Below are positions 42,659 to 45,632 of a stretch of 64,000 bases of DNA, piece by piece. This DNA is from Zhihengliuella flava (lineage in GTDB: Bacteria > Actinomycetota > Actinomycetes > Actinomycetales > Micrococcaceae). Below the pieces are notes generated by a model. That model saw only the letters and a list, made by a program, of their open reading frames with translations. It searched no databases and was not told where the DNA came from. A program made the translations under genes and the position numbers. How positions within the stretch are numbered: the first letter of the stretch is position 1; every line of letters begins with the position of its first letter. The stretch covers positions 1,116,001-1,180,000 of the forward strand of contig NZ_JADOTZ010000001.1 of assembly GCF_015751895.1 (NCBI RefSeq), given 5' to 3'.

Positions 42659-43939
42659 ATGTCCAGCCCACAATCCTCCGCCCACGCGGCCACCGAAGAG
42701 TCCGCCAACTTCCCCACCGGCGTGACGGCCTCCGAGTACGAGGTGTGGGGCGACGTCGACGCGGACCCGGCCGGAGTCTTCGCCGATGTCACCGGCGCGG
42801 ACCGCGCCTACTGGGATACCGCTCGGACCTTCGGGCGTGAGGAGGTCGCGCCCGTCATTGACGACTTCTGGAACCGTGCCGACTACCCGCTAGAGCTGGC
42901 GCGCCGCATGGGTGCGCTGGGGCTGCTGCGCGACGGCGTGGACGTTGACGGCTACGAGCCGATGACGCCGCTGGCCGCTGGCCTGGTCAACATGGAGCTC
43001 TCCCGTGCGGATGGGTCCATTGGCACCATCTGCGGCGTACAGGCCGGGCTGGCCATGCGCTCGATCGCCCTATGCGGCACGGACGAACAAATCGCCCAGT
43101 GGGTGCCGAAGCTGGTCCGCGCCGAGGTGTGGGGCGCCTTTGGCCTCACCGAGCCCACCCACGGCTCCGACTCCGTGTCTTTGGAGACGACGGCGACGCG
43201 CGTGGACGGCGGCTACCGGATCTCGGGCGAGAAAAAGTGGATCGGCAACGCCTCGCTCGCCGACACCACCGAGGGCGGCATCACCGTTATTTGGGCCCGC
43301 GTGATCGGTGGCGAGCACGACGGCAACGTGCGTGGCTTCATCGTTCAACAGGAGTGGGACGGATACTCGGCCACCACCATTGAGAACAAACTCAGCCTGC
43401 GCGCCATCTGGCAGGCGCACATCCGCATGGACGCCGTCTTCGTCCCGGACAGCCACGTCCTGGAACGGTCCACATCCTTCAAAGATGCCTCACGTGTCCT
43501 CTTTGCCACCCGCCTCGGCGTCGCGTGGTCCGCCGTCGGGCATGCCACGGCATGCTACGAGACGGCGGTGCAGTACGCGGGTCAGCGCGTCCAGTTCGGT
43601 CGGCCGTTGGCCAAGAGCCAAATCGTGCAGGAACGGCTGGCGCGCATGCAGTCGGAACTGGTGAGCATGCAGCTGATGGCCCGCCACATGACCGAGCGCG
43701 ACGCAGCGGGGCAGCTCACGCCGGAGCAGGCTTCGCTCGCCAAGTTCACCTGCACGCGGCAAGCCCGGCAGATCGCCGCCAACGCCCGTGACCTGCTCGG
43801 CGGCAACGGCATCCTGTTGGAACACCGCGTGGCGCGGCACTTCGCCGACGTCGAGGCCATTCACACGTACGAAGGCACCGAGACCATCCAAGCGCTCCTC
43901 ATCGGCCGCTCCATTACCGGCGTCTCCGCCTTCGCGTAA
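42659..43939 (+). CDS. Acyl-CoA dehydrogenase, glutaryl-CoA dehydrogenase-like
   Basis: A 426-residue flavoenzyme. Segments 'WGAFGLTEPTHGSDSVSLETTATRVDGGYRISGEKKWIGNAS' (FAD and substrate binding), 'QYAGQRVQFGRPLAKSQIVQERLARMQ' and 'ARDLLGGNGILLEHRVARHFADVEAIHTYEGTETIQALLIGRSITG' identify the family. The catalytic base is the Glu in HTYEGTE. The spacing and 'EVWGAFGLTEP' resemble glutaryl-CoA dehydrogenase, but short-chain acyl-CoA substrates cannot be excluded. GGGAG precedes ATG 42659. No electron-transfer flavoprotein genes are adjacent. Structured element A follows about 85 bp after its stop. Confidence 0.9.
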   Translation: MSSPQSSAHAATEESANFPTGVTASEYEVWGDVDADPAGVFADVTGADRAYWDTARTFGREEVAPVIDDFWNRADYPLELARRMGALGLLRDGVDVDGYEPMTPLAAGLVNMELSRADGSIGTICGVQAGLAMRSIALCGTDEQIAQWVPKLVRAEVWGAFGLTEPTHGSDSVSLETTATRVDGGYRISGEKKWIGNASLADTTEGGITVIWARVIGGEHDGNVRGFIVQQEWDGYSATTIENKLSLRAIWQAHIRMDAVFVPDSHVLERSTSFKDASRVLFATRLGVAWSAVGHATACYETAVQYAGQRVQFGRPLAKSQIVQERLARMQSELVSMQLMARHMTERDAAGQLTPEQASLAKFTCTRQARQIAANARDLLGGNGILLEHRVARHFADVEAIHTYEGTETIQALLIGRSITGVSAFA

Positions 43940-44023
43940 GCGGGAATCCTCATTCCCACGCACTTCACCGAGGCCATTCAGAGAAATACCAGCTTGAGCG
44001 ATTAGCGTCATGGTTACCTCATG

Positions 44024-44098
44024 AAGGTGCGAGTGATGAGAGCACCGGTCGCGTCAGTCTTTCGAGACCATCCGACCGGTGCTCGTCTCACTTAACCA
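44024..44098 (+). repeat. Structured repeat element, copy A (upstream of the small acidic-protein gene)
   Basis: The element begins AAGGTGCGAGTGAT and folds into a stem: AGTGA pairs with TCACT, then GAGCACCGGTCG (40-51) pairs with CGACCGGTGCTC (73-84 of 44000+), after a 3x3 internal loop. The loop contains a second hairpin GTCT-TTCG-AGAC. It ends CACTTAA. A related copy lies at 44418. It starts 85 bp after one stop codon and ends about 70 bp before the next start. Confidence 0.65.
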
Positions 44099-44167
44099 CG
44101 CTTCTGAGCTGGCCAAATGGCACGCACGGGAGCAGACTAGAACTAACCAGTGGAGAGGAGAAGTGCC

Positions 44168-44329
44168 ATGACCACGACGGACCCAACTAAGAAGTCTTCT
44201 GAAGCCGCCACGGATGAGGAAGCGCTGCAGGCACGCCGGGACAAGGACCAGCACGACCACGACGACGCGCGAGTCGATGAGTGGGAAGACGAGTCTTTCC
44301 CGGCGTCCGACCCTCCCTCGAACTACTGA
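44168..44329 (+). CDS. Small acidic protein with C-terminal FPASDPPSNY motif
   Basis: A 53-residue protein, strongly charged (many Asp, Glu, Lys, Arg, His), with no hydrophobic core and no membrane segment, probably largely unstructured. It has an excellent ribosome-binding site (GAGAGGAGAAG). It ends 'DEWEDESFPASDPPSNY'. A tail of the form SFPASDPPS(W/N) recurs at the C-terminus of many small hypothetical proteins in diverse bacteria; its function is not established to my knowledge. The gene stands alone, bracketed by the two structured repeat copies (44024-44098 and 44418-44498). The middle 'DKDQHDHDDARVDEW' includes two His in an acidic run that could bind metal, though this is speculation. 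Confidence 0.85.
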   Translation: MTTTDPTKKSSEAATDEEALQARRDKDQHDHDDARVDEWEDESFPASDPPSNY

Positions 44330-44417
44330 TCACACCGGCCCTCAAGAGTGCCAGAAGCCTCCAACGTTGCTCTCAGGTGATTCCAAGAATGGGCCGTTAG
44401 GCTGAAATCACCTTCTC

Positions 44418-44498
44418 AAGGTGCGAGTGATCAAGAAGCACCGGTTGTCAGCGGTTTATCGCCTCCTTGTCCGTTGACGCCGGTGCTTCGCTCATTTA
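44418..44498 (+). repeat. Structured repeat element, copy B (between small acidic gene and aldo/keto reductase gene)
   Basis: The element begins with the same AAGGTGCGAGTGAT as copy A and folds through AAGCACCGG (44436-44444) pairing with CCGGTGCTT (44480-44488), with further pairing of GTCA/TGAC and TGA/TCA. Relative to copy A the stem changes GAGCACC/GGTGCTC to AAGCACC/GGTGCTT, a compensatory change. It ends CTCATTTAAT. It lies 89 bp after one stop and 75 bp before the next start; a possible promoter (CTGACA-N15-TAGCAT, 44507-44533) follows it. Confidence 0.65.
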
Positions 44499-44573
44499 AT
44501 ACCGCACTGACAAGCCCCGGCTGCGGATAGCATGAAGTGAGCAGCAGCACGTGACTAACCCTAGGAGGACGCC

Positions 44574-45632
44574 GTGCCGGAATTCCGGATCCAGCCCACC
44601 CACGAGACGCACCGCCCGTACGTGGCCGCACCGGATCGCTACGAGTCCATGGCGTATCGCCAGGTCGGCACCTCCGGCCTCCTGCTACCTCCTTTGAGCT
44701 TGGGCCTCTGGTGGAACTTCGGCGACAACCGCCCCTTCGATACGCAGCGGGAGATCCTCCGGCATGCCTTCGATCGCGGCATCACGCACTTCGACCTCGC
44801 GAACAACTACGGGCCTCCCTACGGCAGCGCCGAAGAAAACTTCGGCCGGATGATGCGCACCGACTTCGCCCCGTACCGGGATGAAATCATCGTCTCCTCC
44901 AAAGCCGGGTATGACATGTGGCCCGGCCCCTACGGGATCGGCGGCTCCCGGAAATATCTGCTCTCCTCCGCCGAGGCCTCGCTGCGCCGCATGAATCTGG
45001 AGTACGTGGACCTCTACTACTCGCACCGTCCGACGCCGGAGGTGCCGCTGGAAGAGACCATCGGCGCGCTCGACACCCTCGTCCGGCAGGGCAAGGCGCT
45101 GTACGTCGGCATTTCCTCCTACTCCCCCGAGCGCACGGCGGAAGCCGCAGCGATCGCGCGGGACCTCGGCACACCGCTGGTCATTCACCAGCCCTCCTAC
45201 TCACTCCTCAATCGGTGGGTGGAAGACGGCCTACTCTCCACCCTGCAGCGCGAGGGCATGGGCTCCATTGCCTTCACCCCGCTCGCGCAGGGCCTGCTCA
45301 CCAACAAGTACGTCGACAACCCGCAGGCCGCCGCGGCCGGGGGCCGCACCACGGTTCAAGGCCTGACCGAGGACAATCTCGCCATCGTCAAGAACCTGGC
45401 CCGCGTGGCCGAGGAGCGCGGCCAGAGCCTGCCCCAGTTGGCGCTGGCGTGGCTGTTGCGCGACGGCGGCGTCACGTCCGTGCTCGTCGGCGCCTCGTCC
45501 ACCGCACAATTGGATGACAACCTCGGCGCCCTCTCCAACACCTCCTTCACCGACGAGGAGCTGACGCTGATTGACCGCATTACCTCCGGCGAGCCCAGCG
45601 TCGACCTGTGGCGCGCGCAGTCTCAGGTGTAA
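44574..45632 (+). CDS. Aldo/keto reductase, L-glyceraldehyde-3-phosphate reductase-like (YghZ type)
   Basis: The 352-residue TIM-barrel enzyme has the AKR tetrad: Asp in 'THFDLANNYGPPYG' with Tyr following, Lys in 'IIVSSKAGYDMWPGPYG' and His in 'DLYYSHRP'. The sequence 'MAYRQVGTSGLLLPPLSLGLWWNFGD' and the GPPYGSAEENFGR stretch are typical of YghZ-like proteins, which detoxify methylglyoxal and reduce L-glyceraldehyde-3-phosphate with NADPH. GTG 44574 has AGGAGGA at good spacing. The TPM-domain gene starts nine bases after its stop. Confidence 0.92.
   Translation: MPEFRIQPTHETHRPYVAAPDRYESMAYRQVGTSGLLLPPLSLGLWWNFGDNRPFDTQREILRHAFDRGITHFDLANNYGPPYGSAEENFGRMMRTDFAPYRDEIIVSSKAGYDMWPGPYGIGGSRKYLLSSAEASLRRMNLEYVDLYYSHRPTPEVPLEETIGALDTLVRQGKALYVGISSYSPERTAEAAAIARDLGTPLVIHQPSYSLLNRWVEDGLLSTLQREGMGSIAFTPLAQGLLTNKYVDNPQAAAAGGRTTVQGLTEDNLAIVKNLARVAEERGQSLPQLALAWLLRDGGVTSVLVGASSTAQLDDNLGALSNTSFTDEELTLIDRITSGEPSVDLWRAQSQV

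Follow-up and report, generated by a model that had tools for sequence, protein, structure and literature searches.

A multicopy family of predicted small RNA genes with a putative response-regulator box in the Micrococcaceae

We read two structured elements of Zhihengliuella flava as free-standing genes for small RNAs of ~80-90 nt, belonging to a multicopy Micrococcaceae family that would be controlled by a two-component system and act in trans on ribosome-binding sites, and we give this reading a probability of about 0.72. The family, its promoter architecture, structure, orientation and synteny emerge from the comparison of genomic sequences. Since the copies combine promoter elements of their own with a terminator-like hairpin and an orientation independent of their neighbors, a small-RNA gene is the best reading of each.

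Results

Two related elements flank a gene for a small acidic protein

The window, i.e., the entire 64,000-nucleotide stretch of Z. flava DNA that was analyzed, contains two compensated-stem elements, copy A (44015-44095) and copy B (44409-44499), standing on either side of a 53-codon gene for an acidic protein (44168-44329). The features of the locus are as follows:

43951-43993 (+): regulator-type box of copy A, with four registers at 11-bp spacing (CAC 43957, CCG 43968, CAG 43979, CAG 43990), three of the four having CA and the last ending 10 bp 5' of the -10 hexamer
44003-44008 (+): -10 hexamer of copy A, TAGCGT, which aligns with the TAnnnT of other copies
44015-44095 (+): predicted small RNA A, 5' end at ~44014-44016, ending at the CTCACTTAA tail; folding energy -48.5 kcal/mol (z -5.2; equaled by 0/200 shuffles)
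44015-44029 (+): constant 5' hairpin of copy A, TACCT-CATGA-AGGTG, the family-wide pairing of hairpin 1
44024-44037 (+): near-invariant AAGGTGCGAGTGAT of copy A, comprising the 3' arm of hairpin 1 and GAGUGAU, the latter unpaired in the family model
44040-44084 (+): variable terminator-type stem of copy A, of the A subtype GAGCACCGGTCG/CGACCGGTGCTC, with an inner TTCG hairpin and no C-rich loop
44168-44329 (+): 53-codon acidic protein ending in DEWEDESFPASDPPSNY, a conserved neighbor of B-type copies
44346-44388 (+): regulator-type box of copy B, degenerate (registers CAG, AAC, CAG, AAG; CA in two of four)
44398-44403 (+): -10 hexamer of copy B, TAGGCT, from alignment with other copies
44409-44499 (+): predicted small RNA B, 5' end at ~44408-44410, ending at the CATTTAA tail; folding energy -43.2 kcal/mol (z -6.2; equaled by 0/200 shuffles)
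44409-44423 (+): constant 5' hairpin of copy B, CACCTT-CTC-AAGGTG
44435-44489 (+): terminator-type stem of copy B, with 6 of 11 outer-helix pairs changed on both sides in relatives
44462-44468 (+): CCTCCTT, an anti-Shine-Dalgarno sequence in the apical loop of copy B, present in 25/25 B-type copies

The two look-alike copies lie where the preliminary description had placed them, and the opening that it took them to share, AAGGTGCGAGTGAT, has exact matches at 44024-44037 and 44418-44431 and nowhere else in the window; the 2.9-Mb genome holds a third at C1:1313154, and this 14-mer read backwards does not occur in it. The compensated change that it saw in the stem, from GAGCACC/GGTGCTC in A to AAGCACC/GGTGCTT in B, was recovered, as were the TTCG-looped inner hairpin of copy A (GTCT-TTCG-AGAC), the 53-codon length of the intervening ORF and the distances to the flanking genes (copy A: 84 bp from the stop at 43939 and ~70 bp on to the ATG at 44168; copy B: 88 bp from the stop at 44329 and ~75 bp on to the GTG at 44574). 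The real start of the element lies 5' of the one first described and takes in a hairpin arm (ACCT...AGGT), the -10 hexamer and the regulator-type box. The acidic protein of the window has no Pfam or NCBIfam match.

That the elements belong to no known RNA family, as first supposed, is borne out by Rfam, which gave no match for them in the window or in the family loci; PtaRNA1 (RF01811) reaches 20.4 bits in the window and 22.3 bits in L172 against a gathering score of 47 bits. Elsewhere in the window, a glycine riboswitch aptamer (RF00504; 14154-14253, reverse strand) scores 62.7 bits against a gathering score of 32. Our search of the literature, which covered few subscription journals, found no name for the family; the string GGTGCGAGTGAT is present in one human-genetics paper, which is unrelated.

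A multicopy family in the Micrococcaceae

Exact matches to AAGGTGCGAGTGAT in genome contigs amount to at least 120 loci, of which 17 were taken as family after selection on organism names, with a CCT filter and by eye, the other 103 of those listed being left as chance 14-mers. The 17 named loci come from Arthrobacter, Rothia, Nesterenkonia, Glutamicibacter, Paeniglutamicibacter, Micrococcus, Zafaria and a ‘Micrococcaceae bacterium’; Nesterenkonia sandarakina belongs to the Micrococcaceae, and its locus (L037) matches L161 of genome G042, a member of the window's family. The alignment of 24 exact-match copies, 21 from these loci and three from the own genome, displays a block order of TAnnnT, ~7 nt, (G)TTACCTCATGAAGGTGCGAGTGATnA and then a second hairpin of variable sequence, with a small hairpin 1, of 5-6 bp, in which ACCT pairs with AGGT. 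From it, leaving out L044, we derived R1, a covariance model of the 37-nt 5' module trained on 23 copies; the three copies of the own genome are among these, and the scores of copy A (46.2 bits) and copy B (43.4 bits) are thus those of training members.

A covariance-model search of actinobacterial genomes had been proposed as a check on the elements. In the own genome R1 detects the three copies, and at E up to 0.05 it matches 138/149 Micrococcaceae genomes, which have 1-9 copies each and represent 31 of 32 genera; the count of 138 is not fully independent as R1 was trained with loci of genomes that are counted (e.g., L037 corresponds to G042 and L021 to G050). The 11 family genomes lacking a match belong to the genera g6 (all eight tested) and g3 (three). 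In an order-wide draw of 297 genomes, 22 are matched by R1 with E no higher than 0.01, every one a member of the Micrococcaceae; two further family genomes in this draw had no match at that threshold, nor did any of the 273 genomes outside the family, 18 of which were seen to belong to other families and the remaining 255 inferred to do so. By this sequence-based measure, the family is confined, in the genomes searched, to the Micrococcaceae, a group with members in soil and on skin.

Copies are sometimes clustered, some at intervals of 160-460 bp. One tandem array has four family copies in ~520 bp (G023:C5 179121-179637), and elsewhere three equal-scoring copies stand ~10-11 kb apart (G093:C1 2443604, 2454898 and 2465119), perhaps as a result of segmental duplication. 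For the counts that follow, 111 R1 hits less two duplicate rows (L195) gave 109, of which 85 were kept at <70% upstream identity.

Promoter elements and the putative regulator box

In the 45 bp 5' of the -10 element, CA stands at -46, -35, -24 and -13 in 57, 58, 41 and 69 of the 85 copies, respectively, over a background of 0.066 per position, and three or four of these four registers have CA in 53/85 copies. Distances from CAG to CAG peak at 11 (69), 22 (38) and 33 (18), all other distances up to 40 having counts of 1-8. In most copies the half-site is TTCnCAG with an 11-bp period, in up to four tandem units, the last of them at the -35 region. At promoters that they activate, OmpR/PhoB-type regulators sit on direct repeats of 11-bp period that extend to the -35 region, and we consider this a putative box for a response regulator of that type. 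Several paralogues per genome (1-9 copies; three in the own genome) appear to stand behind such a shared box. The boxes of both window copies are degenerate. Weak boxes, scoring 2-4 of 12, are seen in L030, L063 and L097 (all three named Rothia) and, of the same type, in L152 and one L188 copy; a score of 8 is reached by the second L188 copy and by L060 of Rothia halotolerans.

A promoter-only model, R2, recovers the box of copy A in the own genome at E 0.0185, this stretch being among its 35 building rows; at E up to 10 it has four hits there, two of which are promoters of the predicted RNAs (copy A and the third copy), and the box of copy B is not found. In 14 other genomes the five best hits are promoters of family members, the others beginning at E 0.008; since the first two of the latter fall in genomes of other families, we treat hits away from the predicted RNAs as chance matches or leads. 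One such box, CACAG...GCAG...CACAG followed by TAGACT, precedes a VKOR-family gene by a few bases (L201; G000:C1:62723-62766, reverse strand) and, with an E of only 0.1, is a regulon lead at most. In another family of the order, locus L210 (G173, 1501-1554) has CAG repeats in ~11-bp phase ~70 bp before an ORF, the start of which by eye resembles an ABC-transporter permease and the first 90 residues of which have no Pfam match; a similar regulator may thus exist outside the Micrococcaceae.

The likeness of the box to those of PhoR and PhoP prompted us to consider the phosphate regulon, which we rejected: the own-genome pstS box is of another type, presumably the GTTCACC type as judged by eye, and we therefore do not name the regulator of the TTCnCAG box. 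CutR was rejected as well, its site, TAWATAAA (PMC12802291), being a misfit to TTCnCAG.

Structure of the predicted RNAs

Conservation is highest in the promoter and the 5' module, and the sequence of the 3' hairpin varies. Pairing in hairpin 1 extends to 99.4% of cells across 94 distinct copies, in an alignment fitted to that very structure, and the covariation of this hairpin is not significant (154/500 shuffles as high). The heptamer GAGUGAU is nearly invariant though it lies outside the module hairpin. The A-type stem, compared over 12 copies, has two pairs with both partners changed (41/500 shuffles as high; 8/500 for the covariation score). An unpaired run of at least four C, or CCTCC, occurs in 59/85 copies versus 17% of 850 shuffles, a test whose significance is overstated by the relatedness of the 85 copies, as in the other shuffle tests on this set. 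The C-runs carry the enrichment (56/85 copies versus 15% of shuffles), unpaired CCTCC alone being not clearly enriched (6/85 versus 4%) and CCTCC anywhere downstream occurring in 16% of copies versus 21% of shuffles. By this minimum-free-energy test 26/85 copies, copy A included, have neither loop type; together with the family-wide lack of a clear CCTCC enrichment, this means that the anti-Shine-Dalgarno argument rests on the B subtype.

The B subtype and its neighborhood

The B-type module is present in 25/197 family genomes from 3 of 32 genera, including all five genomes of the window's genus. Counting from the RNA side, the B-type copies follow an acidic gene in 25/25 loci: in 24 of these the encoded protein ends in ESFPASDPP(S/A)NY and the stop lies 62-188 nt upstream, and the 25th (L248) has a variant acidic gene, EEWSDESFPGSDPPSNY, further upstream. 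B-type RNAs and the small acidic protein hence constitute what is, by synteny, a conserved neighborhood. A further family copy lies within 900 nt upstream of the B-type copy in 14/25 loci. The suggestion that the two elements are the ends of a small RNA-protein cassette was the nearest of the original guesses in this respect; it fits less well in that promoter elements stand before each copy separately and that a B-type copy is missing from most family genomes.

The outer stem of the B type has 6 of 11 pairs changed on both sides over 21 distinct sequences, with 97.9% of cells paired (L225 was kept in this alignment though one base out of register); 0/500 shuffles are as high for pairing and double changes, and 466/500 for the number of pair types. 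The loop CCTCCTT is invariant in all 25 copies while this stem varies. CCUCCUU is the anti-Shine-Dalgarno sequence of 16S rRNA.

Discussion

Alternative explanations

One could take the elements for cis-acting leaders or attenuators, riboswitch-like or coding a leader peptide, of the genes downstream. Both window copies are indeed on the strand of a start codon 70-75 bp downstream, and the invariant AAGGTGCGAGTGAT has the look of a Shine-Dalgarno sequence with a GTG start. However, a simple ORF caller, applied to the 84 of the 85 copies whose locus was long enough, places the downstream gene opposite in 49 and on the same strand in 29 (six unassigned), so that 49 of the 78 assignable copies speak against the leader regulators that had been proposed; the upstream gene is on the same strand in 44 of the 84 copies and opposite in 34 (six unassigned), and seven copies overlap an ORF call; a same-strand position before a gene holds for the two window copies alone and not for the family. 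A leader peptide starting at the invariant GTG was ruled out, as its frame is not kept: the first stop comes anywhere from codon 2 to 133, and nine copies have no stop at all in the stretch after the GTG. We hence regard a leader as highly improbable. It is also very unlikely that the family is one of intrinsic terminators or of REP/MITE-like DNA repeats without RNA function. This idea draws on the strong GC hairpin that follows the module in most inspected copies, some of which consist of just the module and a plain terminator, and on the TTTAA tail found in 36/85 copies versus 6/85 in a stretch further downstream. Against it, conservation peaks in the promoter and 5' module and not in the variable hairpin. 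In 21 of the 84 copies both neighbors are opposite, such that neither needs a terminator there. Moreover, one family copy as query had no match in plasmids, and another had just five partial matches of 33-34 bases in phages. The terminator family of the preliminary description fits only the 3' half, in which we see the probable terminator of the RNA itself.

Two other alternatives accept an RNA but place its activity or ancestry elsewhere. The active part might be the constant 5' module, docking a protein or the ribosome, with the 3' hairpins as mere terminators, a possibility that we hold to be doubtful. The module is the sole part common to all copies (by construction of the search), GAGUGAU is held nearly constant outside any module pairing, and the 26 copies devoid of an unpaired C-rich motif would be accommodated; on the other hand, the copies exceed shuffles about fourfold in unpaired C-rich stretches, and the B type keeps its loop unchanged on a variable stem. 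The family could alternatively be a divergent branch of the 6C RNAs with a new 5' module, which we consider unlikely. A 6C RNA has two stem-loops, each loop with a run of about six C, and its consensus agrees with this description; the C-rich loops of the family are reminiscent of it, yet two or more C-rich hairpin loops occur in only 7/85 copies even by a loose test, and in the window copy A has no C-run loop and copy B just one (CCTCCTT). In its favor, genus g6 has no family copy in 8/8 genomes and one 6C match in 12/12, as if one replaced the other; these matches are at E up to 0.01 (8 of the 12 over the curated cut-off), a threshold at which g3 has 6C in 0/3 genomes. Against this stands genus g11, in which all four genomes have the new family and three of the four 6C as well. 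Further, 6C (RF01066) has no match at E up to 10 in window positions 43900-44700, none at the gathering score in the window and nine loci, and none at E up to 5 in 11 family loci, and ORFs of at least 90 codons from 15 6C loci (~3 kb each) had no tblastn match at 1e-15 in the family loci analyzed. Searched alone at E up to 0.001, 6C was present in 2/36 family genomes drawn over 32 genera, and the own genome has none. Several of the g6 members among the 6C-like RNAs of g6 and g11 (L249-L263) have additional C-rich stretches upstream of the part that Rfam matches. The 6C RNAs and the new family are thus distinct loci, which may work in a common manner.

A proposed mechanism and its implications

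Returning to the preferred reading, that of trans-acting small RNAs, we infer their transcription, regulator and targets, and the part played by the constant module, in the following manner. A two-component system would switch the RNAs on via a response regulator of the OmpR/PhoB type, which, bound to up to four tandem TTCnCAG half-sites, would stand in for the -35 element, with TAnnnT as the -10 and transcription starting ~7 nt after it. The constant 5' module, i.e., the small hairpin and GAGUGAU, would be made first, and the variable GC-rich hairpin, doubling as terminator, would end the transcript. In about two thirds of the members, a C-run or CCUCC is predicted to be exposed, and such loops would pair in trans with mRNAs at their G-rich Shine-Dalgarno region, thereby blocking translation; by analogy with known systems, this is the most likely way for these RNAs to act. 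More tentatively, the 5' module might be a common handle for a Micrococcaceae RNA-binding protein or the ribosome, to which interchangeable terminator-effector hairpins are attached, with the B-type ones mimicking the 16S anti-Shine-Dalgarno sequence and being coupled to the acidic protein. If true, this would represent a modular, two-component-controlled small-RNA system in actinobacteria.

To our knowledge, no general sRNA chaperone has been established in actinobacteria, and the family offers a way to ask how these organisms handle trans-acting RNAs. Absent from Rfam and occurring across the sampled Micrococcaceae (Arthrobacter, Nesterenkonia, Glutamicibacter, Rothia and others), it provides a paralogue set ready for study, with one constant module, variable loops and a candidate regulator box.

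Comparison with known systems

B11 of mycobacteria is a 6C RNA. Its C-rich loops are reported to pair with ribosome-binding sites and mask them (PMC10470900), making it an actinobacterial sRNA comparable to the family in both loops and presumed targets. The two differ in that 6C consists of two adjacent C-looped hairpins, whereas the family has a constant 5' module, mostly a single hairpin and up to nine loci.

As for the promoter, published work gives TCACAGC repeats with a 4-bp spacer for the Mycobacterium tuberculosis PhoP box (PMC4832192) and CCTGTGAAaatCCTGTGAA, the reverse complement of which carries TTCACAGG with an 11-bp period, for the Corynebacterium glutamicum PhoR box (PMC3353115). 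Both are close to the TTCnCAG of the family, which is set apart by its up to four half-sites and by the different box of the own pstS.

CiaR, the response regulator on which the streptococcal csRNAs depend, is of the OmpR family, and by analogy these csRNAs are the closest functional parallel to the system described here. Streptococci have two to six paralogous short csRNAs per genome, with two stem-loops, a stretch conserved in virtually all members and Shine-Dalgarno complementarity, behind an 11-bp-period direct repeat that lies ten bases before the -10 element (PMC3091779). They belong to another phylum, their repeat is TTTAAG-N5-TTTAAG, which is not found before the -10 of the family with its TTCnCAG of 11-bp period in up to four half-sites, and their anti-Shine-Dalgarno stretch lies between hairpins rather than in a hairpin loop. 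Likened by description, however, both are sets of paralogues placed behind an 11-bp response-regulator repeat and endowed with complementarity to the Shine-Dalgarno sequence.
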